A DNA stretch of 10,984 bases, from positions 1 to 10,984 of the forward strand of contig JAUVIY010000061.1 of assembly GCA_030592625.1 (NCBI GenBank), read 5' to 3'. This stretch comes from Spirochaeta sp. (GTDB lineage Bacteria > Spirochaetota > Spirochaetia > DSM-2461). Positions 1 to 10,984 of the stretch are shown here, one piece after another; within the stretch, counting starts at the first letter, position 1, and every line of letters starts with the position of its first letter. The notes beneath the pieces are model-generated. The model searched no databases. It saw only the letters and a list, made by a program, of their open reading frames with translations, and was not told the origin of the DNA. The translations under genes were made by a program, and so were the position numbers.

Positions 1-1781
1 CCGGGGCATTGGAGGCCACAGGCATCGACTTCCAGAGTCGTAATGGCTGAAAGAGCCGGATGCGGAGTCTCCGCCAGTCCCGGTTCATAACCGGTTTCGT
101 ATTCGGTGAAAATATTCCGGTTATTCTGGTCCTCCACTGCAGTCTCGTATACTTTCCAACCACCGGAGAGAATGCTCACATCGTTGAAATCATTCTGCTT
201 CAGAATGCGTTCCACCAAATAGGATCTGAGTCCGACACCGCATAAAATGACAATCTTCATGTCCCGGGGAATCCGGGATAAACTGGCGCGTATTTCATTC
301 TTGGGAATATTTACAGCACCTTGCAGAGATCCCAGAGAAAACTCTTCTTCAGTCCTTACGTCCAGCAGAAACAGCTTCGAGCCGTCATTCTTCATCAGTT
401 CCTGCAATACTTTCCATGAGGTATGGTGACTCCGTTCCATGAGGGTATTTTCCGCGGTAAATCCCAGGATATTCACCGGATCTTTGGAAGACGAATATGG
501 GGGAGCATAAGCCTGTTCCAGTTCCGTAAGATCTTCAACAGTTCCTCCCTGACGGAGTACCGCAGCGATCATTTCAATCCGTTTATCCACACCGTCGTAA
601 CCGACGATCTGGGCTCCTTGAATTTTCCCTTCATCCGGAGAGAACACGAGTTTAAGGGTGAGCGGCATGGCGCCGGGGTAGTATCCGGCGTGGGAGTGCC
701 CGTGGGTTATAACACTGTTGGACGGAATCCCCTCTTTCACCATCATTTTCTGCGCCACACCGGTGGTTGCGATAGTCAGGTCGAAAATCTTGGCGATGGC
801 TGTTCCTATGGCACCTGGATATTCTTTCTTTTTTCCATAGACCAAGTTATCCGCCAGAATCCTTGCCTGTTTTCCCGCCGGTCCGGCCAAAGGGGTGATT
901 CCCGTTTTCCCTGTAACCGGCCAACTGAATTCAGCGGCATCGCCCAGGGCGTAAATACCCGGGACGGAAGTTTCCATGTATCCGTTAACCAGGATCCCCT
1001 TGGATGTTCAGATTCCGGCTTTCTCCGCCAGGGTTTTCTCCGGTCGGACTCCTATGGAAAGAACGGCCAGGTCGGCATTGATGACGGTTCCGCTGCTCAG
1101 GGAAATTTTGAGTTTCCCATCGATTTCCTTGAAATCGCTCACTCCGTCGGATAGATAGAGTTCAACTTTTTTTGTTTTCAAATGGTCGTGAACCATGGCG
1201 GCCATCTCGATATCCAGGGGCGCCATAACCTGATCGGCCTGTTCGATGATGGTGACATTGATTCCCCGGTCGTAGAGGTTCTCGGCGACTTCCATGCCGA
1301 TAAATCCACCGCCGACAACCACGGCCCGTCGGGGGCGGCGTTCATCGACGAAACCTTTCAGATGGTCAACATCCGATACGTTACGCAGGGTGAAAATCAA
1401 ATCACCGTCGATTCCGGGTATGGGCGGCCGGAGGGGTTCGGCTCCGGGAGACAGAATAAGGGCATCATACCCCTCTCGGTATTCCCGACCGCTCTTGAGG
1501 TCTTTCACCCCGACGGTTTTTTCCCTGGGATCAATATCGATAACTTCGTTGGAGATTCTCACATCCACATCGAGGGTCCGCCGGAAGGATTCGGGTGTCT
1601 CAACGAAGAGTTTTTCCCGTTCCTTGATCGTTTCTCCCAGGTAGTAAGGAAGCCCGCAATTGGCATAGGAGATATATTCTCCGCGTTCAAAGATGATGAT
1701 AACCGCTTTTTCGTCGTTCCTTCTTAATCGGGCTGCCGTTGCGGCTCCACCGGCGACACCACCGACTATCAGATATGTCAT
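1..1781 (-). pseudogene. CoA-disulfide/persulfide reductase-rhodanese-TusA fusion, interrupted by an in-frame TGA, 3' end off window
   Basis: FAD/NAD(P)H-dependent disulfide reductase fused to sulfur-transfer domains. The N-terminus has a Rossmann FAD motif (VGGVAGGAATAARLR, about residues 6-20), the single redox cysteine of CoA-disulfide reductases in NCGLPYY (Cys42), and a second dinucleotide motif (VVVGGGFIGMEVAE). At codon 258 the frame meets TGA, but the same frame then stays open for 335 codons to the window edge. It encodes the FAD-binding YALGDAAE segment, a dimerisation domain (HAGYYPGAMPLTLKL, YAPPYSSSKDPVNILGF), a rhodanese domain with active loop CGVGLR (Cys514, counting the TGA as a residue) and the start of a TusA domain (VDACGLQCP). 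Known relatives such as CoADR-Rhd and Npsr reduce CoA persulfide or polysulfide. The ATG at 1781 follows AGGAG at good spacing. The stop may be a real nonsense mutation, a sequence error or a readthrough site. If real, the 257-residue product would lack the dimer interface and be inactive. The family call is firm; the functional status is not. Confidence 0.85.
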
Positions 1782-2179: not shown

Positions 2180-3295
2180 ATGATACCGACCGTGAATTGT
2201 GGAATCGTAGGGCTCCCCAACGTGGGCAAGTCAACAATCTTCTCGGCCCTGACTTCCGCTCCGGCGGAAGCGGCCAATTATCCGTTCTGTACCATCAATC
2301 CTAATATCGGTGTCGTTGAAGTTCCGGATCCCCGCCTGGACAGGATTCATGGCATCATCGAAGCCGACAAGCTTGTACCGGCCATTACCGAATTCGTCGA
2401 CATTGCCGGTCTGGTAAAAGGCGCCTCGAAGGGTGAAGGCCTGGGAAACCAATTCCTCTCAAACATCCGCAGTGTGGGTATCATCGCGCATGTGGTGCGT
2501 TGCTTCGAGGATGAGGATGTCGTTCATGTGGAAGGCAAGGTGGATCCCGCCTCGGATATCGAAACGATCAATGTTGAGCTGGCTCTGGCCGATCTCCAAT
2601 CCGTTGAGAAGCGTCTGGACAAAAACGCCCGGCAGCTGAAGGCTGCCGACCTGAAAATCCGTCAGGAGGCCATCGCCGTTCAGGAGCTGCTGGAAGAGGT
2701 TTCAGCCCATCTCGGCGAAGGAAAGCCGGTCAGGTCCATGGATCTATCGGATGATGATGAGGCACGCCTCAGAGAACTCTTTCTTTTAACAGCGAAAACA
2801 CAAATATACGTGTGCAATGTCGATGAAGACGGCATCGATGGCAAATCAACCTCGGTTCTGGCCGTACAGGCTATCGCTGAAGAGGAAAATACCGAAGTCG
2901 TTGTTCTTTGCGGCAAGCTGGAAGCCGACATCGCTGCGCTGGAAGATCCCGAAGAGCGGACTGAATTTCTTAAAGAATCCGGTTTGAGCGAATCCGGGCT
3001 GTCCAGACTCATTCGAAGCGCCTATTCAACCCTGGGACTGCGCACATTCTTTACCGCCGGTGGTGTGGAGAACCGGGCATGGACCTTTAGGGAAGGGGCC
3101 ACAGCCCCCCAATGCGCCGGTGTCATTCACAGCGACTTCGAGCGCGGCTTCATCAAGGCCGACGTTTATCATTGCGATGACCTGTTCGAACTGGGAAGCG
3201 AGTCGGCGGTGAAATCAGCAGGCAGGTTCCGCATGGAAGGCAAGCAATATATCGTCCGGGATGGGGATGTGGTCCACTTCAAATTCAACGTCTAG
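2180..3295 (+). CDS. ychF: Redox-regulated/ribosome-associated P-loop ATPase YchF (OLA1 family)
   Basis: Cytoplasmic Obg-related P-loop NTPase that in characterised relatives prefers ATP to GTP, binds ribosomes and is linked to stress responses. The 371-residue product is close to the usual length of about 363. Visible motifs are the P-loop GLPNVGKST (residues 11-19), the G3 region [17 protein letters not shown], and NVDE at 213-216, which replaces the GTPase NKxD signature and is the family's mark of relaxed base specificity. A C-terminal TGS domain spans roughly residues 280-368 (TFFTAGG through [10 protein letters not shown]). The ATG at 2180 gives the N-terminus expected for the family (six residues before CGIVGLPN). 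No Shine-Dalgarno precedes it, because the outer arm of the inverted repeat ends at 2174. An in-frame GTG at 2192 is a less likely alternative. It is convergent with the FecR-domain gene, 58 bases apart, with no obvious terminator between them. Confidence 0.96.
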
Positions 3296-3353: not shown

Positions 3354-4472
3354 TTAAAAACTGGGCGTGGTGGACATGATGTCCGGAGTGTTGGAATCGG
3401 GGAATCCGCCGCCGGCTCCATCGACGACCCTGTAGATCCGGATCATGTATCGGGCGCGGGCCAGCATGTTTCGCATTTCATTCTTGTCGGAGTGGAAGGA
3501 GCGATAGAAATCCCCGGCATCATTGTAGTTACCTGCCTGGAATGGTCCCGGGGCGAATCCCTGGCGGTAGGCGTCTTCCAGTCCGACGAGGGTGTTGAAA
3601 GTTCGTTCCGATATGGGAAGTATCGCCCTGAGCTCGAGCATCCCGGGGCTGAGCGCTCTTTTGTCCCGGATGATGTCACCGGTTGGCGGAAAATCTGTAT
3701 CGTCCCGGATTATCCTTTCCCATCGGCGGAAGATGTCGTCGTGTGTTTCAAGTTCCCGCATGGCGTTTTCGAGGCGGGGCATCTGCTGATCCCATTGCCT
3801 TGAAAACTGTTGAATGGACAGGCGGGCGTTGATTTTCAATGCCTCCAGCCTCAGACCCTGCCAGTACTGACGGTAGAGGTCTACATCGGAGGGTGCTACG
3901 GAAATGGCGGACATCTGAGCCTGATCGTCAACGGCGGCTACGGTTCCCGGCTGGGCCATGATGGTCCGTCTGTCGGTTTTGCTTTCCACCCGGCCTTCAG
4001 GCACCGTCACCAATACCGACCGATCTGGGGCCATGTCGACGTTGAATTCGGTACCCCGGACGGCCATGATGGCCGAATCGGTCTGGACTTTATAAGATTC
4101 CCGGGAAGAGAGCCTGCCGACTTTGAGACTCAGAGAACCCCGAAGCAACTGAAAAATCGTTTCGAATCTTGAGGACTGTTTCGGGCTGCTTTCGAAATAA
4201 AAAGCGGAATCAGGCTGTACTTTCACCAGCGAACCGGCGGATGGAGCGCTTATTTCCACTTCGACATATCCATCGGGTCCTGTTTCTATGGTATCGGATT
4301 GTTCAATCCTGAGTCCGATTCCAATATTCCCGGGGCTGAGGTATCTACCATTCCTGGAGACATCGATGCTGCCCTCCAGATAGCTGATGGTACCGACGGC
4401 GGATTCCGCCGAAACAACCAATGCGGCGGCGAGAAGCAGGACACCTGTCGTAAACAGTCTGCGCATGTTCAT
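3354..4472 (-). CDS. Exported FecR-domain protein
   Basis: A 372-residue protein with a signal peptide (MRRLF, then a hydrophobic stretch ending about VVSAESA, residues 3-24) and no later membrane segment, so probably periplasmic or surface-associated. Residues about 25-185 form a FecR domain: YLEGSIDVSRNGRYLSPGN, the LRIEQSDTIETGPDGYVEVEI block, TDSAIMAVRGTEFNVDM and VPEGRVESKT. The remaining half is charged, probably helical, and unrecognised. In spirochaetes such stand-alone FecR-domain proteins are common, and they are not paired with FecI sigma factors or TonB receptors; none is visible here. I infer a structural or ligand-binding envelope role, not iron signalling. It is monocistronic and faces ychF. 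Two closely spaced ATGs (4472 and 4466) could serve as start. No Shine-Dalgarno is present, in keeping with the promoter described separately. Confidence 0.85.
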   Translation of the reverse strand: MNMRRLFTTGVLLLAAALVVSAESAVGTISYLEGSIDVSRNGRYLSPGNIGIGLRIEQSDTIETGPDGYVEVEISAPSAGSLVKVQPDSAFYFESSPKQSSRFETIFQLLRGSLSLKVGRLSSRESYKVQTDSAIMAVRGTEFNVDMAPDRSVLVTVPEGRVESKTDRRTIMAQPGTVAAVDDQAQMSAISVAPSDVDLYRQYWQGLRLEALKINARLSIQQFSRQWDQQMPRLENAMRELETHDDIFRRWERIIRDDTDFPPTGDIIRDKRALSPGMLELRAILPISERTFNTLVGLEDAYRQGFAPGPFQAGNYNDAGDFYRSFHSDKNEMRNMLARARYMIRIYRVVDGAGGGFPDSNTPDIMSTTPSF

Positions 4473-4601: not shown

Positions 4602-5534
4602 TTAATTATTGTGTTGATCCTTCGTATGAATGTTGATTACCGCCCGAATCATGGTTCCGAGTCCGAGGGTGGATTGGATGATGAATTCGTCGGAAACCCG
4701 TTTTATGTTGGGTAGTCCTATTCCCGCACCAAACCCCAGTGAACGAATCCATTCATTGGCCGTTGAAAAACCCTCGGTTAAAGCCTGATCCACATCAGCA
4801 ATGCCCGGACCGTGATCGTGTGATGTAATCACAACCCGGTCAGCATTAATATCGAAGCCAAGCATGCCTCCATCGGAATGAGCCACCAGATTTATCTCCA
4901 ACTCGTAACTGGCGATTGCAACACGCCGGATCAATCTGGAGGGGATTCCATGTCCCTTAAGGAATTTCTTGATTTCACTCGAAGCCTTCCCTCCGTTTTC
5001 AAAATCATAGCGGCTCAATAAATACTCCTTCACAAGTTCCAGTGAAGACATATCGACCGAGTGTTCGTTGAGGTTATTTTTTTCCTGCAGCTGTCGTGAC
5101 AACTCGCGAATCAGCGCAAGGTTGATATTGCGGAAAGTGATGATTCCTGCCAACTCATTCCGTTTGTTCACTACCGGAAAACGTCGAAAAGGATACTTGC
5201 TGAAAGCGGATATTGCGAAAGATAACGGCATCTCTTCGGCCAGGGCCTGTACCTCGAATGTCATCCAATCTGTGACGGGATCGTCCATCCTGCCTGATTC
5301 CAGAGCATTCATAATGTCGTTCATACTGACAATACCCACAACCACCCTGCTGTCTACAACCGGCACACCGGTAATGGAATTTTCCTTCATGATGGACTGT
5401 GCCTCGCGTATTGTTGTATTGCGAGGAACTGCCAGAACATTGCGGGTCATTACTTCGCTTATCTTCAGATCGCCGATCAGCTCACAACCTTGCGGTAACG
5501 ACTGAAATGATCCCTTCTGTCCCATATTGGTCAT
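4602..5534 (-). CDS. CBS-pair protein fused to a RsbW-like HATPase domain
   Basis: A 310-residue soluble protein with two parts. Residues about 24-80 and 86-142 are tandem CBS domains (SEVMTRNVLAVPRNTTIREA...TGVPVV; DWMTFEVQALAEEMPL...RRFPVV), a module that usually binds adenine nucleotides. Residues about 195-302 are a GHKL/HATPase fold of the anti-sigma (RsbW/RsbT) type: N-box ELEIN (Glu211, Asn215), DHGPGI at 240-245 and the glycine-rich lid GFGAGIGLPNIKR at 268-280. No phosphoacceptor histidine domain is present, so it is not an ordinary sensor kinase. The start overlaps the stop of the upstream DRTGG gene by one base (TGATG), which points to translational coupling and a shared complex. 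I infer that nucleotide binding at the CBS pair gates the ATPase or kinase domain. The substrate is unknown, and no sigma factor or anti-anti-sigma STAS partner is in the window. Confidence 0.88.
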   Translation of the reverse strand: MTNMGQKGSFQSLPQGCELIGDLKISEVMTRNVLAVPRNTTIREAQSIMKENSITGVPVVDSRVVVGIVSMNDIMNALESGRMDDPVTDWMTFEVQALAEEMPLSFAISAFSKYPFRRFPVVNKRNELAGIITFRNINLALIRELSRQLQEKNNLNEHSVDMSSLELVKEYLLSRYDFENGGKASSEIKKFLKGHGIPSRLIRRVAIASYELEINLVAHSDGGMLGFDINADRVVITSHDHGPGIADVDQALTEGFSTANEWIRSLGFGAGIGLPNIKRVSDEFIIQSTLGLGTMIRAVINIHTKDQHNN

Positions 5535-5872
5535 CAGGTTTTCATAATCCGCCCGAGGCGTACACAGGTTTCATACGTTGGAAACTTGACGCAAAATAAC
5601 GCAATTTCCAGCTCCTCGGCCAGTACAACCATCCCGTCGGTTACAGCCTTGTTGTTGGTAATCACCACGGCCTCTGAATTGACCATCCCTGTGGAACGGA
5701 TCGATTGTTCTGTGGAAAGTGAGGTGACGATCAGCATGTTATCGAGATCGCTCATTAATATATCGCTCATTAAATCGGAGGAAAAAATGGATTTGATGTT
5801 GATTTGTTCCCAGGCTGCGGGTCCATACGCAATCCTGGTTTCGAGAGCTTCAGCTATTCGTATCAATTTCAT
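5534..5872 (-). CDS. DRTGG-domain protein, copy 1
   Basis: A 112-residue single-domain protein. The block SDLMSDILMSDLDNMLIVT (residues 32-50), the VVITNN strand and the C-terminal LAEELEIALFCVKFPTYET match the DRTGG fold, which also occurs in pyruvate-kinase-like/phosphotransacetylase fusions, and between CBS domains in family II pyrophosphatases where it belongs to an adenine-nucleotide-sensing insert. The CBS protein encoded directly after it, with a one-base overlap, suggests that this pair recreates the CBS-DRTGG sensor as two polypeptides; that is inference. A second DRTGG gene lies at 7454-7786 and shares the SDLLSDVM block. No Shine-Dalgarno is visible. TAGAAT ends four bases before the ATG, so a near-leaderless transcript is possible. 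Confidence 0.85.
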   Translation of the reverse strand: MKLIRIAEALETRIAYGPAAWEQINIKSIFSSDLMSDILMSDLDNMLIVTSLSTEQSIRSTGMVNSEAVVITNNKAVTDGMVVLAEELEIALFCVKFPTYETCVRLGRIMKT

Positions 5873-5876
5873 TTTA

Positions 5877-5882
5877 ATTCTA
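5877..5882 (-). promoter_or_regulatory. Possible -10 box just upstream of DRTGG copy 1
   Basis: TAGAAT on the minus strand matches TATAAT at five of six bases and lies four bases from the ATG at 5872. The -35 region (GACTGA or ACTGAA, about 5899-5905) is poor. It is offered mainly because the gene has no Shine-Dalgarno and is cut off from upstream transcription by the terminator at 5917-5946. Confidence 0.3.
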
Positions 5883-5916
5883 GGGATGAAATACCTGTTT
5901 CAGTCCTGTGTTCAGG

Positions 5917-5946
5917 CAAAAGGCCGGCGGAGTCATCCGCCGGCCT
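5917..5946 (-). terminator. Rho-independent terminator of the lipoprotein gene
   Basis: A perfect 11-base GC-rich stem (AGGCCGGCGGA at 5921-5931 with its complement at 5936-5946) closes a four-base loop. On the minus strand it is followed by TTTT at 5921-5918. It lies 18 bases after the lipoprotein stop codon. It separates that gene from the DRTGG/CBS-HATPase pair, which therefore needs its own promoter or readthrough. Confidence 0.85.
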
Positions 5947-5964
5947 GTATTAAATAAATGATAC

Positions 5965-6555
5965 TTACTGGTTTACGGGAGAGTCGACTCCGGCTGACCG
6001 GGGCGGATTGTTCTCCACTTCGGCATTCAAGCGTTCCAGGGCCTGCTGGGCCTTGAATTCGGCGAAGGCGGCATCTTCGTTTCTGGCGAAAACATTGCCG
6101 ACTTCCTCAATCATGGCGGCTTTGGGGAAAAAGACCATAAGGAACCATGTACCGTCTTTTGCCGGGTACTGTTCCTTGGTTATGGCACCCTTAAGTTCGA
6201 TATCGGCTACTTCCTTGGAAATCCGTTCCACAAAGGTGAGGGTCTGTGTATTTCCATCGGCACCGGATTCCTGAGCGTAATCGGTGAGCATGGTTTCGAC
6301 GCTCACAGCCACCTGGGCGGCAATATCGGCTCGAGCTCGTGCGAGGGCGGTTGTGCGGGACAGGTTGTCATCCGAAAGTTTTGCCATACCCAGTCCAACA
6401 AATTGGTCTTCGGGCATTGGCGGGGTGAGGAAGAATGCCGGATAATCGGTACTTTTCGCGGGGCCTTCCGCAACTTCTTCCTTTGATGCACAGGCAGATA
6501 GAGCCAGGACAGCTATAACAGCTATAACGATCCCGATCCGTACGGTTTTTTTCAT
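5965..6555 (-). CDS. LPP20-like lipoprotein
   Basis: A 196-residue putative envelope lipoprotein. A lysine-containing N-terminus (MKKTVR) and a hydrophobic core (IGIVIAVIAVLALS) lead to a loose lipobox, ALSAC, giving Cys22 as the lipidated residue. The mature part (GLGMAKLSDDNLSRTTALARARADIAAQVAVSVETMLTDY) matches the LPP20/FlgP-like fold, in which an 'ARADIA' helix follows a short GxA-type strand. A strand segment near DGTWFLMVFFP and a charged C-terminal helix complete it. Relatives are outer-membrane-associated, some linked to the flagellar basal disc, but that role cannot be assigned here. The ATG at 6555 has a good AAGGAG seven bases upstream. It is monocistronic, with its own promoter candidate and terminator, and sits between the two blocks of hydrogenase-associated genes. 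Confidence 0.85.
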   Translation of the reverse strand: MKKTVRIGIVIAVIAVLALSACASKEEVAEGPAKSTDYPAFFLTPPMPEDQFVGLGMAKLSDDNLSRTTALARARADIAAQVAVSVETMLTDYAQESGADGNTQTLTFVERISKEVADIELKGAITKEQYPAKDGTWFLMVFFPKAAMIEEVGNVFARNEDAAFAEFKAQQALERLNAEVENNPPRSAGVDSPVNQ

Positions 6556-6569
6556 TTTGTTTCTCCTTG

Positions 6570-6615
6570 GCGTCGTATACCCGACGCGTTTTCAGGCACT
6601 TCAAGGTGGAGTATA
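6570..6615 (-). promoter_or_regulatory. Candidate -10 box and leader hairpin of the lipoprotein gene
   Basis: On the minus strand TATACT at 6615-6610 is a reasonable -10 box, without a convincing -35. The predicted leader contains a six-base stem, GCGTCG/CGACGC, at 6570-6575 and 6582-6587 with a six-base loop. It lies immediately before the Shine-Dalgarno at about 6563-6568. The hairpin could affect translation or stability, but it is short and may be chance. Confidence 0.35.
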
Positions 6616-6691
6616 GCGTCGTATCAGGTAAAATTTCCATGAACAGGGGAGGACTTTTCGTTTTTTTTTGCTGACCTCCGGAACCTCAGTA

Positions 6692-7414
6692 TCATTTATT
6701 GCCGTACAGAGCCCGTGTTTTTCCCGATTCCAGAGCCATTACAAGGGCCTCGAAATCGGCTTCAGGGGCCTCGAATTCCAGACAACGGCACCCGATATCT
6801 TCGGGGCGATGCGCATCCGACGAGGCAATCACCGGCCAAGGGTCCGTCAGGTCTTCACTCAGCGGCTCGGTGCACTCCACCGCCTCGAAAGGACCTTCCG
6901 GCAGGAAACCCAGCTGCCCGAGGACCCCGAATGCCGGCCGATCGATATGGGCGGGGATGAGAATGCCTCCCCGGCTGCGGCACCAGGGACCCAGATCGTC
7001 AAGTGATAAATCAGTGGCGCAGAGGATGCACAGCTTGTCCAGCATCCCCTCGATTTCCTCATTTTCATCAACCCACACCTGATCGCCGAAGAATCCGGGA
7101 TCGAAAGGTTCGGATTCGAGCCGCTCATAAGCCTCATCTCCGGCTTCGAGGGCTGTTTTGACGGTGGGAAAGAGGGTGAGGGCGTGAACCTCTTCCCTGG
7201 TGGTGATTTCGATACCGAAGACCGCGGCAAGGCCTTCCGACCGGCAGGCTGCGGCGAAAGCCGGGGCGTTCCTGGCACTGTTGTGGTCGGTGAGGGCGAT
7301 GAGATGAAGGCCGCGTTCCCGGGCGCTGCGGGCTATGGCCCGCGGTGACGCAGACAGTTCCCCGCAGGGGGAAAGACAGGAGTGAATATGCAAATCGGCG
7401 CGGAAGGTGGACAT
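6692..7414 (-). CDS. PHP-domain metal-dependent phosphoesterase
   Basis: A 240-residue cytoplasmic PHP-family protein with all the metal-binding motifs of the fold: DLHIHS (Asp7, His9, His11), TDHN (Asp43, His44), GIEIT (Glu69) with EVH (His77), PAHID (His156) and SSDAH (Asp200, His202). Family members are trinuclear-metal phosphatases or nucleases acting on nucleotides, phosphates or histidinol phosphate; the substrate here is unknown. It lies 39 bases after the second DRTGG gene, downstream of rex, and is probably co-transcribed with them. The ATG at 7414 is chosen because it directly precedes the first metal motif and an in-frame stop lies three codons upstream. No clear Shine-Dalgarno is seen. 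An insertion between EVH and PAHID, about residues 95-150, is the least conserved-looking part. Confidence 0.88.
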   Translation of the reverse strand: MSTFRADLHIHSCLSPCGELSASPRAIARSARERGLHLIALTDHNSARNAPAFAAACRSEGLAAVFGIEITTREEVHALTLFPTVKTALEAGDEAYERLESEPFDPGFFGDQVWVDENEEIEGMLDKLCILCATDLSLDDLGPWCRSRGGILIPAHIDRPAFGVLGQLGFLPEGPFEAVECTEPLSEDLTDPWPVIASSDAHRPEDIGCRCLEFEAPEADFEALVMALESGKTRALYGNK

Positions 7415-7453
7415 CAGCGATCAGAATGACGGTTCCGGCAGTCATCCAAAAAA

Positions 7454-7786
7454 TTAGAAACCGCCCAATTCATGAAGACGCCAGCCGGTTTCGTACTGGT
7501 TATTGTCGGTAACGAAGACGGGTATCTCTTCATCCCTGGCTGTTTCAATCATATCATCGGGCACCGGACGGTTCGAGGCGGTAATAATTCCTGACAAATC
7601 CTTGAGGACGGCCACGGCCACGGTGTTCTTGTGAGCCTGGATGGTGATAAGTACCTGGCCCTCCTCAGAACGGGCCATGACGTCCGAGAGGAGGTCCGAG
7701 GTGTAGGCACCGGTCACTTCGCGGTCTTCCCAGCCGTTCCATACGGCCCGGCAGTTCATATCAGTCTGCAGCTCTTTAATGGTCAA
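7454..7786 (-). CDS. DRTGG-domain protein, copy 2
   Basis: A 110-residue single-domain protein of the same fold as the gene at 5534-5872. The paralogues share the S-D-L-[LM]-S-D-[VI] block (SDLLSDVM at residues 30-37) and the final strand-helix segment (EEIPVFVTDNNQYETGWRLHEL), but the rest has diverged. The chosen start is TTG at 7786, overlapping the rex stop as TTGA, with AAGGAA seven bases upstream. The first ATG, nine codons later, has no ribosome binding site. The overlap implies translational coupling to rex. The likely role is ligand sensing, probably of a nucleotide, in support of the divergent hydrogenase operon; this is inference from the family and the neighbours. Confidence 0.83.
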   Translation of the reverse strand: MTIKELQTDMNCRAVWNGWEDREVTGAYTSDLLSDVMARSEEGQVLITIQAHKNTVAVAVLKDLSGIITASNRPVPDDMIETARDEEIPVFVTDNNQYETGWRLHELGGF

Positions 7787-8454
7787 ATGGTGGTTCCTTC
7801 AGAGAGACAATTCACAGGGGAATCCCCTTCACGGGCTTCTCTGTCTTCCAGGGAATTCACCAGAAAAAAGAGGTTTTCGATTTCAAGCCCGATATTCACA
7901 TTATGAATGACACAGTCACCGGTGCATTTGAGTTCCATGGGTGCAAAATTCAGTATGCCCCGGATTCCGGCTCGGAGCAGTCGGTCCCTGACTTCAGCGG
8001 CGGCGGCGGTGGGGACGGTAAGCAGAGCCACCTTCGTCTGCCTGGTATTGATGAAATCTTCGAGTTCATCCATGGAATAGATAGGAATTCCGACGATATC
8101 AGAATGCGGCGGTACCAGGTCGAAACCTGCAACCAGCTTAATGCCTTCTTTATAAAAGGCTTCGTGGTTCAGTAAGGCCCGTCCCAGGTTTCCGCATCCC
8201 ACAAGTATGGCTTCCTGGGCCTCTTTGCCCCCGAGCAGTCGATTGAGCCTTTCCAGCATGGCATCGATGCTGTATCCACCCCGGCGATTCCCCTGCATTT
8301 CAATCCTGGCCAGGTCTTTGCGAACCAGGGCGGCGGAAATTCCGATGGCATCGCCCAGGTTATTCGAAAAGACTCTTTCGAATCCCAGTGAACGGAGCTG
8401 AATGAGGACGCGTTTGTACTTCATTAGTCTGAGCATGAAATCTTTACGTACCAT
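7783..8454 (-). CDS. rex: Redox-sensing transcriptional repressor Rex
   Basis: NADH/NAD+-responsive repressor of fermentation and hydrogen genes. The 223-residue product has an N-terminal winged helix (MKYKRVLIQLRSLGFERVFSNN..., recognition segment GISAALVRKDLARI at about 38-51, then GNRRGGYSI). A Rossmann domain follows with GCGNLG (residues 86-91) and the FD strand end at 111-112 (VAGFDLVP). The C-terminal swap helix is NIGLEIENLFFLVNSLEDRE. The wing reads GNRRGGY where most Rex proteins have GxRGxGY. The frame is open up to a TTG at 8493, but that TTG belongs to the -35 box. ATG at 8454 fits the family's N-terminus, and a further ATG at 8436 is possible. It is divergent from hndA across 154 bases and heads an operon with DRTGG copy 2 and the PHP gene. 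The promoter holds a Rex-like palindrome, which suggests autoregulation. Confidence 0.93.
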   Translation of the reverse strand: MVRKDFMLRLMKYKRVLIQLRSLGFERVFSNNLGDAIGISAALVRKDLARIEMQGNRRGGYSIDAMLERLNRLLGGKEAQEAILVGCGNLGRALLNHEAFYKEGIKLVAGFDLVPPHSDIVGIPIYSMDELEDFINTRQTKVALLTVPTAAAAEVRDRLLRAGIRGILNFAPMELKCTGDCVIHNVNIGLEIENLFFLVNSLEDREAREGDSPVNCLSEGTTI

Positions 8455-8464
8455 GGTGGTTATT

Positions 8465-8493
8465 ATTGTGCCGATTGTAACAACAGATGTCAA
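8465..8493 (-). promoter_or_regulatory. rex promoter, with a near-leaderless start
   Basis: On the minus strand a consensus TTGACA (8493-8488) and CACAAT (8470-8465, four of six matches) are 17 bases apart. The expected transcript start is about 8458, only some four bases before the ATG at 8454. No Shine-Dalgarno is present. The -35 is excellent and the -10 weak. Confidence 0.55.
8466..8483. promoter_or_regulatory. Candidate Rex operator in the rex promoter
   Basis: TTGTGCCGATTGTAACAA is an 18-base imperfect palindrome with perfect TTGT...ACAA ends, the length and end bases of known Rex sites (TTGTGA/TTGTTA half-sites facing each other). It fills most of the spacer and overlaps the -10 box of the rex promoter, the position expected for autorepression. 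Confidence 0.55.
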
Positions 8494-8519
8494 GTTAGTC
8501 GCGTCTAAGGGTTTTATAG

Positions 8520-8537
8520 TTGCAATAAATCATGCAA
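8520..8537. promoter_or_regulatory. Second candidate Rex-type operator, facing the hydrogenase promoter
   Basis: TTGCAATAAATCATGCAA is an 18-base palindrome with five paired bases at each end (TTGCA/TGCAA), keeping the TTG...CAA ends and spacing of Rex sites. It departs from the TTGTNA core. It ends five bases before the -35 box of the hndA promoter. Confidence 0.4.
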
Positions 8538-8542
8538 TGGTA

Positions 8543-8572
8543 TTGATAAAATCAACTTAAGATCGTTATACT
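8543..8572 (+). promoter_or_regulatory. hndA operon promoter with an overlapping palindrome
   Basis: TTGATA (8543-8548) and TATACT (8567-8572) are 18 bases apart, giving a transcript start near 8579 and a leader of about 30 bases. The leader ends in GGAGG (8600-8604), four bases before the ATG at 8609. The -35 box lies inside a perfect palindrome, TTGATAAAATCAA (8543-8555). This resembles FNR half-sites but has a three-base rather than four-base centre, so the factor is uncertain. Confidence 0.5.
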
Positions 8573-8608
8573 TGCTTTTATTCCGATTGAATGTTTTTTG
8601 GAGGTTTC

Positions 8609-9088
8609 ATGGCTACGGCTACCAAAGAGACAATCCTGACTGAAGGTTTGAAAGCGTTTATCGAGGAGTGGAAAGACCGCCCCGGTAACCTCATCATGAT
8701 TCTTCACAAGGTTCAGGAAGAGTATAGGTACGTCCCCAGAGAAATTGCTTTCGAGGTAGCTCATATTTTGGATATTCCTCTGGCCAAGATTTACGGGGTG
8801 GTGACTTTCTATCATTTCTTCAAGCTCGAGAAACCCGGTGACCACAACCTGCAGGTTTGTATGGGAACGGCCTGTTACCTCAAAGGCGCCAGCGATCTGA
8901 TCAGCGAGCTGGAAAACCTCCTGGACATTGGTGTCGGCGGCACGACTCCCGACGGCAAGTTCTCCATTGAAGCCGTCCGCTGCGTCGGCTGCTGCGGCCT
9001 CGCACCGGTTCTGATGGTAGGAGATGAGGTCTACGGTAAGCTCACTACCGAGATGCTGCCGGAGGTACTGGCCCACTATAACGATTGA
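8609..9088 (+). CDS. hndA: NuoE-like [2Fe-2S] subunit of the NAD-dependent [FeFe] hydrogenase
   Basis: A 159-residue thioredoxin-like ferredoxin subunit (HndA/HydC/NuoE family) that carries electrons between the flavin subunit and the other clusters of a cytoplasmic multimeric [FeFe] hydrogenase. An N-terminal helical bundle (ILHKVQEEYRYVPREIAFEVAHIL, GVVTFYHFF) precedes the cluster domain. The ligands are visible as CMGTAC (Cys84, Cys89) and CVGCC (Cys125, Cys129), with GLAPVLMVGDEVYGKLT following, as in the family. The ATG at 8609 with GGAGG is preferred. An ATG six codons upstream would place the ribosome binding site inside the coding sequence. It is the first gene of the operon and overlaps the next by one base (TGATG). 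Confidence 0.94.
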   Translation: MATATKETILTEGLKAFIEEWKDRPGNLIMILHKVQEEYRYVPREIAFEVAHILDIPLAKIYGVVTFYHFFKLEKPGDHNLQVCMGTACYLKGASDLISELENLLDIGVGGTTPDGKFSIEAVRCVGCCGLAPVLMVGDEVYGKLTTEMLPEVLAHYND

Positions 9089-9642
9089 TGCACGCATCTC
9101 TGGCCGATATTCTCACCGATCTGGTGCAGAACAGCATCGAGGCCGGATCGAACCTGGTGAATATCGTATTTATCGAGGATATCAAATCCATTCGATTCAC
9201 GGTGGAAGACAATGGCAGGGGGATGAATAAAGGCACCCTGGAGAGGGCCGATGATCCGTTCCGGACCGACGGCATCAAGCATCCGGGGCGTCGTGTGGGG
9301 CTGGGAATCCCATTCCTCCGCCAGACGGCGGATCAGGTTGGTGGACGGGTTGATATCAACTCAAGCATCGGAAAAGGAACCAGGGTGGAAGCGGAGTTTC
9401 CCGCGGATCACCTGGTGCAGCTCTGGGTGCAGTGCCTCAGTTTCGGCGGTGATTACGAAATGACCATCCGGCGTGTACGCCGGGATTCAGACGACCGGGA
9501 GAGCTTGTACGATATTAACCGGACCGAGCTGTCCGAAGCCCTGGGAGGGCTTGAAGATGCCGGTGCCCTGGGACTTCTGATGGAATATGTACGTTCCCTC
9601 GAAGAGTCCCTTTTAGAAATTGATGAGGAAGGAGATTCATAG
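9088..9642 (+). CDS. Stand-alone GHKL (histidine-kinase-like) ATPase in the hydrogenase operon
   Basis: A 184-residue protein made essentially of one HATPase domain: N-box DLVQNSIEAGS near the start (about residues 11-21), G1 box VEDNGRGM, the lid and G2 segment GRRVGLGIPFLRQTADQVGG, and GKGTRVEAEFP. There is no dimerisation or phosphoacceptor histidine helix, no sensor domain and no membrane segment. A C-terminal tail of about 60 residues (DYEMTIRRVRRDSDDRE... to EEGDS) is acidic and helical and is not recognised. Its start overlaps the hndA stop by one base and it has no Shine-Dalgarno, so it should be made in step with HndA. From memory, similar ATPases occur at this place in clostridial and other hydrogenase operons, with no established function. 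It could be a regulator, an assembly factor or a kinase. Confidence 0.88.
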   Translation: MHASLADILTDLVQNSIEAGSNLVNIVFIEDIKSIRFTVEDNGRGMNKGTLERADDPFRTDGIKHPGRRVGLGIPFLRQTADQVGGRVDINSSIGKGTRVEAEFPADHLVQLWVQCLSFGGDYEMTIRRVRRDSDDRESLYDINRTELSEALGGLEDAGALGLLMEYVRSLEESLLEIDEEGDS

Positions 9643-10035
9643 ATGGCCAAGATGACCCTGGATACTCTCCGAAAGCTCCGAGATGAGCAGAAAGAGGAAA
9701 TCAAACGTCGGGAAAGCGGCGACAAGAGCATCCACATCATTGTGGGGATGGGAACCTGTGGAATAGCCGCCGGCGCCAAGGAAGCACTCAATGTATTCCT
9801 GGGCGAAGCCTACACACGCAAAATGAGTAATGTTGTGGTGAAGCAGACCGGCTGCATGGGTCTCTGTCATGCCGAGCCCACCGTCGAGGTGAAGATGGAA
9901 GGCATGCCCGACATCCTTTATGGAAAGGTTGACGCCGTTATAGCCAAAAAAATCGTCGAGATTCACCTTCTGGGCGGCAAACTCGTCAACGAGCATGTAT
10001 TCGACTATCCCGCCCGGGATATCCACAAGGAGTAG
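9643..10035 (+). CDS. hndB: HndB-like thioredoxin-fold [2Fe-2S] protein
   Basis: A 130-residue small ferredoxin-fold subunit of the NAD(P)-dependent [FeFe] hydrogenase. After a charged N-terminal helix (LRKLRDEQKEEIKRRES), the domain shows VGMGTCGIAAGAKEAL (Cys39) and QTGCMGLCHAEPTVEV (Cys71, Cys75), then YGKVDAVIAKKIVEIHLLGGKLV. Only three cysteines are seen near the cluster site, where NuoE-type domains use four; position 44, where the CxxxxC partner would fall, is Ala. Either the fourth ligand is another residue or the cluster is weakly bound or absent. AAGGAG lies eight bases before the ATG, and the start directly follows the stop of the ATPase gene. Electron transfer to the NuoF-like subunit encoded next is the likely role. 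Confidence 0.9.
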   Translation: MAKMTLDTLRKLRDEQKEEIKRRESGDKSIHIIVGMGTCGIAAGAKEALNVFLGEAYTRKMSNVVVKQTGCMGLCHAEPTVEVKMEGMPDILYGKVDAVIAKKIVEIHLLGGKLVNEHVFDYPARDIHKE

Positions 10036-10038
10036 CCC

Positions 10039-10984
10039 ATGGCCATCAAGAATTACTGCCTGGTGTGCGGCGGGACCGGCTGTGAAGCCGGCAAAGCCGA
10101 TGCCATATATCACAGCCTGCGATCGGCAGCCGAACTCAATGGAATCGGCGACGATGTTCAGATCGTCAAGACCGGTTGTTTCGGTCTCTGTGAAAAAGGT
10201 CCTATCGTCAAGGTTCTTCCTGAGGAAGCGTTTTATGTCGAAGTGAAGCCGGAAGACGCTGAGATAATCGTCAAGGAACACCTGGTGAAAGGCCGGATTG
10301 TAGACTCCCTTCTCTATAAAGAGAAAGGCGCCGACAAAACCGACATGGCCGAAATCAAGTTCTACCAGAAGCAGATGCGTCTCGTGCTGCGCAACTGTGG
10401 AGTCATCGATCCGGAAAACATCAACGAATATATCGCCCGCAGCGGCTATGTGGCCCTTGAAAAGGTTTTGTTCGAGATGAGCTCAGCACAGGTGATCGAC
10501 GAACTGAAAACCTCGGGTCTTCGCGGACGGGGCGGTGCGGGATTTCCTACCTGGCTCAAGTGGAAATTTACAGCCGATGTCGAGTCCGACAAGAAATACA
10601 TCGTCTGTAACGCCGACGAGGGCGACCCCGGTGCCTATATGGATCGTGCCACACTGGAAGGCGATCCTCATTCCATCCTCGAAGCCATGACTATCGCAGC
10701 CAAAACCGTCGACTCCGATCAAGGTGTCATCTACATCCGCGCCGAGTATCCTCTGGCCATCCATCGTCTGGAAATCGCTTTGGAACAGTCCCGGGAATAC
10801 GGCCTGCTCGGGGAAGATATCCTGGGCAGCGGATTTGATTTCGACATCGAAATACGTCTGGGTGCCGGTGCCTTCGTCTGCGGTGAGGAGACGGCGCTGC
10901 AGGCCTCCACCGAGGGCAACCGCGGCATGCCGATTCCGAAGCCCCCGTTCCCGGCGGTTAAGGGCCTCTTCGGGAAACCGACAG
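10039..10984 (+). CDS. hndC: NuoF-like NADH/FMN subunit of the [FeFe] hydrogenase (3' end off window)
   Basis: The first 315 codons of the flavin subunit (HndC/HydB/NuoF family), the NADH-oxidising and proposed bifurcating subunit. An N-terminal thioredoxin-like [2Fe-2S] domain carries CGGTGC (Cys10, Cys15) and CFGLC (Cys47, Cys51). The NuoF core follows from about residue 110 (YQKQMRLVLRNCGVIDPENINEY): glycine-rich NADH loop GLRGRGGAGFPTWLKW, then CNADEGDPGAYMDR, the FMN-binding GAGAFVCGEETAL, and a GNRGMPIPKPPFPA segment. The SLBB, C-terminal 4Fe-4S and any extra ferredoxin domains lie beyond the edge. AAGGAG is six bases before the ATG, and the gene starts three bases after the hndB stop. 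The H-cluster catalytic subunit should follow. Confidence 0.95.
   Translation, partial: MAIKNYCLVCGGTGCEAGKADAIYHSLRSAAELNGIGDDVQIVKTGCFGLCEKGPIVKVLPEEAFYVEVKPEDAEIIVKEHLVKGRIVDSLLYKEKGADKTDMAEIKFYQKQMRLVLRNCGVIDPENINEYIARSGYVALEKVLFEMSSAQVIDELKTSGLRGRGGAGFPTWLKWKFTADVESDKKYIVCNADEGDPGAYMDRATLEGDPHSILEAMTIAAKTVDSDQGVIYIRAEYPLAIHRLEIALEQSREYGLLGEDILGSGFDFDIEIRLGAGAFVCGEETALQASTEGNRGMPIPKPPFPAVKGLFGKPT

Follow-up and report, generated by a model that had tools for sequence, protein, structure and literature searches.

In many anaerobes, enzymes built on the BfuABC core keep NADH and low-potential ferredoxin in balance, and to our knowledge hardly anything has been learnt about how they are switched. 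HydS-kinase-bifurcating hydrogenase neighbourhoods are already known in clostridia, those of group D/M2e reportedly from the work of Calusinska in 2010. Here, we analysed a 10,984-nucleotide stretch of DNA from Spirochaeta sp. (the whole of contig JAUVIY010000061.1, assembly GCA_030592625.1; hereafter "the window"), in which genes for a protein joining a CBS pair to a HATPase domain (CBS-HATPase), two DRTGG proteins, a PHP phosphoesterase and a lone GHKL ATPase surround rex and hndABC. These five genes are one widely inherited unit, and the unit is linked to the BfuABC bifurcating core rather than to the [FeFe]-hydrogenase.

Sensory hydrogenases upstream of bifurcating hydrogenases, often with a histidine or serine kinase in between, were noted in 2012 (PMC3561251), and the clostridial group D/M2e loci likewise contain a HATPase or kinase gene for which a regulatory role was proposed (PMC3561251, PMC8163306). 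One putative operon of Halanaerobium hydrogeniformans (Halsa_1862-1871) is listed with a hydrogenase, an NADH dehydrogenase, a ferredoxin-like protein, a histidine kinase, NuoE, a PHP protein, an iron-sulfur hydrogenase and an anti-sigma kinase, and thus with most parts of the HydS version of the unit (PMC4237134), while Cthe_0339 of C. thermocellum, annotated as a histidine kinase, lies inside Cthe_0338-0342 (PMC3990059). The window's module differs from the clostridial loci in that its putative sensor is a CBS pair fused to the HATPase and not HydS, in counting two DRTGG proteins among its parts, and in that the module also accompanies Bfu enzymes devoid of an H cluster. The SpoIIAB/RsbW anti-sigma kinases resemble the HATPase domain in fold and ATP-site residues; in the window, in contrast, a CBS pair is fused to that domain, small DRTGG partners accompany it, and Pfam scans of the window's proteins found no sigma factor or STAS domain. 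The CBS-DRTGG region of family II pyrophosphatases (3l31/3l2b) combines the same two kinds of domain, which the window carries on separate chains encoded by neighbouring genes, with no pyrophosphatase domain. AcuB is a CBS adaptor under the control of Ap4A that carries an ACT domain and acts by inhibiting a deacetylase (PMC13039410), whereas the output domain in the window is a SpoIIAB-like ATPase. The NuoE/NuoF-like core was named BfuABC by Schut and colleagues, who found it with varied catalytic partners, and the HndA/HndB/HndC core beside the five genes is a member of that family; the main text of their paper contains none of the words "kinase", "CBS", "accessory" or "anti-sigma", and a legend states that regulatory genes are drawn in plain text (PMC9304861). 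In the open literature searched, which excluded figures, supplements and most subscription papers, neither the five-gene module under these names nor its CBS form, the membership of DRTGG or the Bfu-wide distribution turned up, and the co-mention of DRTGG with hydrogenase concerns another gene.

A unit inherited with the BfuABC core

Full-length CBS-HATPase was found in 56 of 296 Spirochaetota genomes, which were sampled evenly across the phylum and included that of the window. PHP and GHKL (at E of 1e-40 or lower) were found in 57 each, and BfuB/HndC (at E of 1e-150 or lower) in 147; these searches scored the best first-look candidates (four per genome in one search), and absences may be misses. 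The phi coefficient was 0.90 for CBS-HATPase and PHP, 0.86 for CBS-HATPase and GHKL, and 0.93 for PHP and GHKL. Nearly all of these genes fell inside BfuB-positive genomes (CBS-HATPase 55/56, PHP 57/57, GHKL 56/57). Where CBS-HATPase lay apart from hnd genes or at a contig end, the genome still encoded BfuB in 48 of the 49 searched, two of which (G012 and G062) look like one genome. In 251 Chloroflexota genomes, CBS-HATPase was found in 12 and BfuB in 92; all 12 were BfuB-positive (Fisher 3.6e-6; 9.9e-6 excluding the centre genome), with the two genes within 6 kb of each other in 11.

The CBS-HATPase profile recovered at least 572 relatives across genomes, the best 80 loci of which were used; the labelled rows of the HATPase tree by themselves cover eleven phyla. 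The fetched stretches of these 80 loci, many on short contigs, held DRTGG in 76, PHP in 63, GHKL in 42 and an hnd gene in 44. Close relatives show the run DRTGG1-CBS-HATPase-DRTGG2-PHP (DRTGG1 sometimes being missed), and many of them have it next to rex and hndA-GHKL-hndB-hndC-hydA; the window's version of the run is rearranged and interrupted by a lipoprotein gene. In loci L109-L153 (L123 left out), an hnd gene was present in 37 of 44, often in interleaved order, as in DRTGG-CBS-HATPase-DRTGG-PHP-hndA-GHKL-hndB-hndC or hndA-hndB-hndC-DRTGG-CBS-HATPase-DRTGG-PHP-GHKL. The cluster is more than chance: apart from the window's two copies, the genome gave no DRTGG match (Pfam, E up to 10), and many genomes repeat the arrangement. 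Gene fusions are a classical sign of working partners, and single open frames were found that join HATPase to DRTGG (five loci, two families), PHP to GHKL (L129) and HATPase to a HydS-like protein (L243). Together with the phi values and with interleaving with hndABC in other phyla as well, the fusions bear out the sequence-only reading that the genes form a module.

That reading had also assigned the module to the hydrogenase. However, a match to the [FeFe]-hydrogenase domain PF02906 (E up to 1e-10) was present in only 12 of the 43 module genomes behind L109-L153 and was absent from 31; L123 and L127 were left out of this count, at least two of the genomes (L124, L150) are spirochaetes, their completeness was not given, and NiFe hydrogenases lay outside the search. 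The sequence-only reading had itself named occurrence in genomes lacking such hydrogenases as refuting, and this is largely what the count shows. The idea of a hydrogenase-specific accessory set was rejected on this count and on a scan of neighbouring proteins. Neighbours of catalytic type at module loci included 1,084- and 1,089-residue FAD/Fe-S proteins, a 1,197-residue molybdopterin protein, a NuoG-like protein and a 197-residue HoxU-like subunit, and none of ten proteins scanned from such loci matched PF02906. For the window, as for most of its near relatives among the spirochaetes, a true HydA is the partner. What the module loci share is the NuoE/NuoF-like core, with BfuB/HndC almost always present, and the partner is thus the BfuABC core. 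Hydrogen is produced by only some of the energy-saving redox enzymes that come with the module; a conserved set of five genes that goes with Bfu across phyla, H2-making or not, is a concrete candidate for Bfu control.

Other arrangements were also seen. In two Chloroflexi loci (L118, L122), DRTGG-CBS-HATPase lies directly 5' of a NiFe hydrogenase cluster with an NAD-binding subunit and a maturation protease, the stretch holding no NuoE/NuoF (Pfam was run on L118, with which L122 shares protein clusters). Near the module of L069, an 801-residue protein (15365-17767) combines HisKA, HATPase_c, pyridine-nucleotide-disulfide oxidoreductase and rhodanese domains. In one spirochaete family (L235, L237, L239), DRTGG and a HATPase-DRTGG fusion stand beside a CBS-domain gene, which at L235 encodes an MgtE magnesium transporter according to Pfam.

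Domain families and apparent exchange of the sensor part

Pfam support was firm for the CBS domains, and the HATPase part of CBS-HATPase scored barely above its cut-off (28.8 versus 27.4 bits). In the predicted model, the CBS pair folds as in AMP-, ADP- and Ap4A-binding CBS proteins and bears the ribose motif G-h-h-S/T-x-x-D. The HATPase domain has the GHKL fold with the E/N and DxGxG residues of the ATP site; SpoIIAB was its best sequence match among solved structures, and the modelled domain matches SpoIIAB in fold. The whole protein is predicted to combine an AMP-type CBS pair with a SpoIIAB-like domain. The 108 CBS-HATPase rows of the conservation alignment amount to 104 distinct ones, one genome having been fetched twice for each of the pairs L050/L080, L049/L078, L059/L089 and L037/L076. 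Profile labels that had fallen on IMPDH (L105, L150), CNNM (L110) and MgtE (L235) were CBS-domain matches according to Pfam and were dropped.

DRTGG2 lies just above the Pfam cut-off of 25.2 bits and DRTGG1 below it (Table 1), and both join one alignment. Residues D33 and S36 were conserved in 67/67 sequences of the upstream-copy class (DRTGG1), and D31, S34, T48 and N54 in 95/95 of DRTGG2, with H52 in 94/95; this invariance of D31/S34/T48, and of H52/N54 in copy 2, was seen in the module's DRTGG family. The nearest solved relatives, at weak similarity (E 5.5e-4), were the regulatory regions of CBS-pyrophosphatases (3l31/3l2b). Pfam support was firm for PHP and for the GHKL protein. The PHP residues H9, H11, D43, H44, E69 and H156 (96/96) and D200 and H202 (94/96), which we take to be metal ligands, were conserved, and the solved relatives of PHP include endonuclease Q, the phosphoesterase 3e0f/3o0f (presumably that of B. 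adolescentis), 2yb1 and a 5'-3' exoribonuclease, whose substrates we assume to be nucleotides. In the GHKL ATPase, N16, D42, G44, G46, G72 and G74 were conserved in 59/59 sequences. Its best solved relatives are histidine kinases; Pfam showed HATPase_c-type matches only, with no HisKA or H-box phosphoacceptor in the chain, and its identification as a two-component histidine kinase was rejected for want of HisKA.

Short HATPases devoid of CBS are present in many spirochaetes. Among 24 of their loci, a selection from those listed plus L211 and L219, 17 had a HydS-like protein as neighbour (fused in one case), two (L211, L226) had module genes and no HydS in the stretch, and five were HATPase-DRTGG fusions. 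In L072 and L219, the HydS-like protein matched PF02906 and an FeS domain; most of the 17 have another residue at the first cysteine of TSCCP, giving an x-C-P motif, many carry a motif of the S-P-C-x-A-K type, and the third pattern fits only five (we take the three to be H-cluster motifs). Two module loci have, in place of CBS-HATPase, a HATPase accompanied by a HydS-like protein, so that the sensor part, CBS pair or HydS-like protein, looks exchangeable and with it the putative input, adenylate or H2. CBS-fused, HydS-linked and DRTGG-fused forms separated in a HATPase tree (few columns, many weak forks; every second CBS row, 54/107, was used, and L211, L238 and L240 were excluded as lacking the motif). 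In this tree L219 and L243, modules with a HydS-like protein, grouped with the HydS-linked HATPases (fork 93/78; L219 on a long branch), and the HATPase of L226, which seems to have lost its CBS, fell in the CBS group. In the window itself, the Pfam scan found no HydS-like protein beside the HATPase, and the CBS pair stands in that place. DRTGG-HATPase-HydS cassettes also occur on their own, the stretches fetched for L225, L227, L228, L229, L234 and L236 showing no Bfu gene, and probably represent a second use of the same switch.

Proposed mechanism and its rivals

We consider it moderately likely that the products of the five genes form a signalling module in which an exchangeable sensor feeds a SpoIIAB-type switch, and that this module sets the working state or activity of BfuABC-type enzymes, HndABC being one of them. 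The data show co-inheritance, adjacency, fusions, the replacement of CBS-HATPase, intact ATP and metal sites, the predicted CBS-HATPase folds and the link to Bfu over [FeFe]-hydrogenase; the ligand, H2 sensing, kinase activity, the phosphorylated sites and a post-translational target are inferred. The CBS pair would read an adenine nucleotide (the AMP/ADP/ATP ratio, or Ap4A), and its nucleotide state would switch the fused SpoIIAB-like kinase domain, which would then act on DRTGG1, with Ser36 as candidate acceptor, in the manner of SpoIIAB towards its small partner. DRTGG2, with its invariant His52, the GHKL ATPase and PHP may form a second arm, reversing or effector. PHP would be the reversing enzyme, and both DRTGG proteins small partners of the switch. 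The product would toggle the Bfu core, which all these enzymes have in common, and in relatives a HydS-like protein would provide the input instead of the CBS pair.

Transcription, under this proposal, would be set by Rex and activity by the module. The motif TTGT-N10-ACAA, which we take to be the shape of a Rex operator, occurred in 10 of 30 divergent rex-hndA regions, the window's site at 8466-8483 among them, versus 0.35 in shuffles (maximum 3 in 1,000), six of the ten (L039, L043, L052, L053, L054, L057) coming from one genus (g4) and not being independent; other spacings (8, 9, 11 and 12) gave 0, 1, 0 and 0 loci. This exact form was tried only after the best-match score to the Rex consensus had proved unconvincing over the 30 loci (mean shuffle p 0.42; 9/30 at 11 or more of 14). 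The motif lends some support to control of the divergent hnd promoter by Rex, which probably governs both arms and would thus leave a different job to the module.

Several observations weigh against activity-level control by the module. Full-length CBS-HATPase was missing from 92 of the 147 BfuB-positive Spirochaetota genomes, and Hnd operons persist without the module in several spirochaetes, so that the control would be optional; in a quick tree, the HndC sequences of module-less operons nest at several places among module-bearing ones, which reads as repeated joint loss of the module. Among the matches listed, CBS-HATPase lay within 20 kb of BfuB in 17 of 56 Spirochaetota genomes, many of them fragmented. 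CBS-HATPase occurred without PHP in four genomes, BfuB was not found in G084 despite the presence of CBS-HATPase, and G187 yielded none at 1e-150. The module genes of L118 and L122 precede a NiFe hydrogenase, both genomes carrying BfuB elsewhere. The HydS part of the L243 fusion matches PF02906 over positions 10-104 only and fits no H-cluster pattern; it is doubtful that the fused protein binds an H cluster, and it may be no H2 sensor. Gene order and the lack of DNA-binding domains are the sole arguments for post-translational action, the acceptor residues are guesses from conservation (a conserved Ser or His may only shape the fold), and a predicted SpoIIAB-like fold is no proof of kinase activity.

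The main rival to activity-level control is a transcriptional route, in which the SpoIIAB-like domain would hold a sigma factor, Rex or another regulator by partner switching and so change the expression of Bfu genes and not the activity of the enzyme. We deem this rather unlikely, despite the closeness of the HATPase domain to SpoIIAB in sequence and modelled fold, the coupling of rex to DRTGG2 in the window, and the AraC-type regulator that adjoins TamHydS, itself with a HATPase neighbour (PMC8163306). Association with rex in 9 of 80 cross-phylum loci can be read both ways, as a recurrent tie or as a rare one; beyond the negative outcome of the scan of window proteins for sigma factors and STAS domains, interleaving among enzyme subunit genes would be unusual for a pure regulator of transcription.

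The same position of module genes, between hndA and hndB or among other subunit genes, would suit a role in assembly, with the GHKL and SpoIIAB-like ATPases as chaperones and PHP and DRTGG aiding FMN or Fe-S insertion into the Bfu core, and the module does accompany a separate hndB (73/1/7/14; loci mostly chosen by module, a biased sample that carries little weight). Yet the nested Hnd operons lacking CBS-HATPase, PHP and an intact GHKL indicate that the module is not needed to make the enzyme, and a CBS or HydS input would make little sense for a maturase; this reading is disfavoured, and we hold it improbable. A slimmer chance still attaches to PHP being a nucleotide phosphatase that makes or destroys a signal sensed by CBS and DRTGG, with the Bfu genes one of several targets: the solved relatives of PHP and the likeness of DRTGG to the pyrophosphatase regulatory region fit that proposal, whereas no nucleotide cyclase or synthetase domain was found in the window proteins scanned, and the PHP-GHKL fusion of L129 would better suit phospho-signalling. 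Ordinary proximity of genes with no common function could appeal to the wide separation of the parts in many spirochaetes and to 52 CBS-HATPase loci whose fetched stretch held no hnd gene, in some of them only because the contig ends; since co-inheritance holds when the genes are apart (48/49; phi up to 0.93) and three kinds of fusion exist, we rejected a chance neighbourhood and give it next to no credence.

If the proposed activity-level switch is real, DRTGG, PHP and lone GHKL genes, now annotated by domain only, would gain a function; the sensor swap predicts nucleotide-controlled and H2-controlled versions of one switch. More tentatively, and as a possibility that we would not yet lean on, the BfuABC superfamily might be under a hitherto unrecognised form of control in at least eleven phyla, by this SpoIIAB-type switch with plug-in CBS (adenylate or Ap4A) or HydS (H2) sensors, DRTGG phospho-acceptors and PHP as their phosphatase; such a system would provide anaerobes with a rapid valve, acting on enzyme activity, between NADH, ferredoxin and energy charge.

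The window and its surroundings

The window is the whole of contig C324 in a draft genome of 2.84 Mb (438 contigs, 73% complete). Its last 127 bases are repeated exactly where contig C375 (reverse strand) begins, and hndC continues on that contig (profile coverage 1-317 on C324 and 276-595 on C375), followed by a 584-residue HydA with the motifs TSCCP, MPCTAK and EVMACKGGC. The operon is hndA-GHKL-hndB-hndC-hydA, with a regulatory arm (rex, DRTGG2, PHP, an LPP20-like lipoprotein gene, DRTGG1 and CBS-HATPase) on the opposite strand [Table 1]. HndA, HndB, HndC and a HydA with H-cluster motifs together fit a putatively bifurcating BfuABC-type enzyme, and the place of hndB near hndA and hndC is conserved across loci. 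All five families named by the sequence-only reading around rex and hndABC are present; the interval that it gave, 5534..10984, holds the others and leaves CBS-HATPase almost wholly outside, beginning at the first base of that gene. The overlaps it described, one base (TGATG) between DRTGG1 and CBS-HATPase and four (TTGA) between rex and DRTGG2, whose start is TTG, could be read from the sequence. GHKL is likewise coupled to hndA, by a one-base TGATG overlap when started at ATG 9088, and most aligned relatives begin at or next to the same Met, many as "MH". The hndA frame opens at 8591, and its start ATG 8609 is preceded by GGAGG.

Table 1 Features of the window, with domain matches and remarks
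Feature	Position	Strand	Remarks
CBS-HATPase	4602..5534	-	CBS pair at about residues 22-146; SpoIIAB-like HATPase 165-304
DRTGG copy 1	5534..5872	-	DRTGG 18.7 bits, under cut-off; TGATG overlap; upstream-copy class
LPP20-like lipoprotein gene	5965-6555	-	Under its Pfam cut-off; sits within the cluster
PHP phosphoesterase	6692..7414	-	PHP 7.1e-10, PHP_C 2.6e-9; complete set of putative metal ligands
DRTGG copy 2	7454..7786	-	DRTGG 25.4 bits; coupled to rex via TTGA overlap
rex	7783..8454	-	Frame reaches 8493, ATG 8454 the likelier start; NCBIfam Rex 207 bits, cut-off 138
Candidate Rex operator TTGTGCCGATTGTAACAA	8466..8483		TTGT-N10-ACAA
hndA (NuoE-like, BfuC-type)	8609..9088	+	2Fe-2S_thioredx 2.2e-48
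Lone GHKL ATPase	9088..9642	+	Frame 9085-9642; HATPase_c 3.4e-16; histidine-kinase catalytic type, no HisKA match
hndB, thioredoxin-like 2Fe-2S protein	9643..10035	+	2Fe-2S_thioredx 8e-4, under cut-off
hndC (BfuB, NuoF-like), 5' part	10039..10984	+	Complex1_51K 4.6e-39; rest on C375, then hydA

A second Bfu-like operon lies elsewhere in the genome (G000 contig C391, locus L222), with NuoE-like, 1,045-residue BfuB-like and PF02906-matching HydA-like proteins and no module genes on that contig. The lipoprotein gene and those for a FecR-domain protein (3354-4472) and YchF (2180-3295) form a conserved neighbourhood by PHP and DRTGG2 in the window's family, found also in L043, L048, L049, L053, L204 and L215, with no evident tie to the module. 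At the edge of the window, a pyridine-nucleotide-disulfide oxidoreductase/rhodanese gene (3-1781, minus strand) is broken into two open frames about 30 bases apart, one (1008-1781) with Pyr_redox_2 and the other (3-977) with the dimerisation and rhodanese domains, the break being a frameshift, an assembly error or a sign of a decaying gene.

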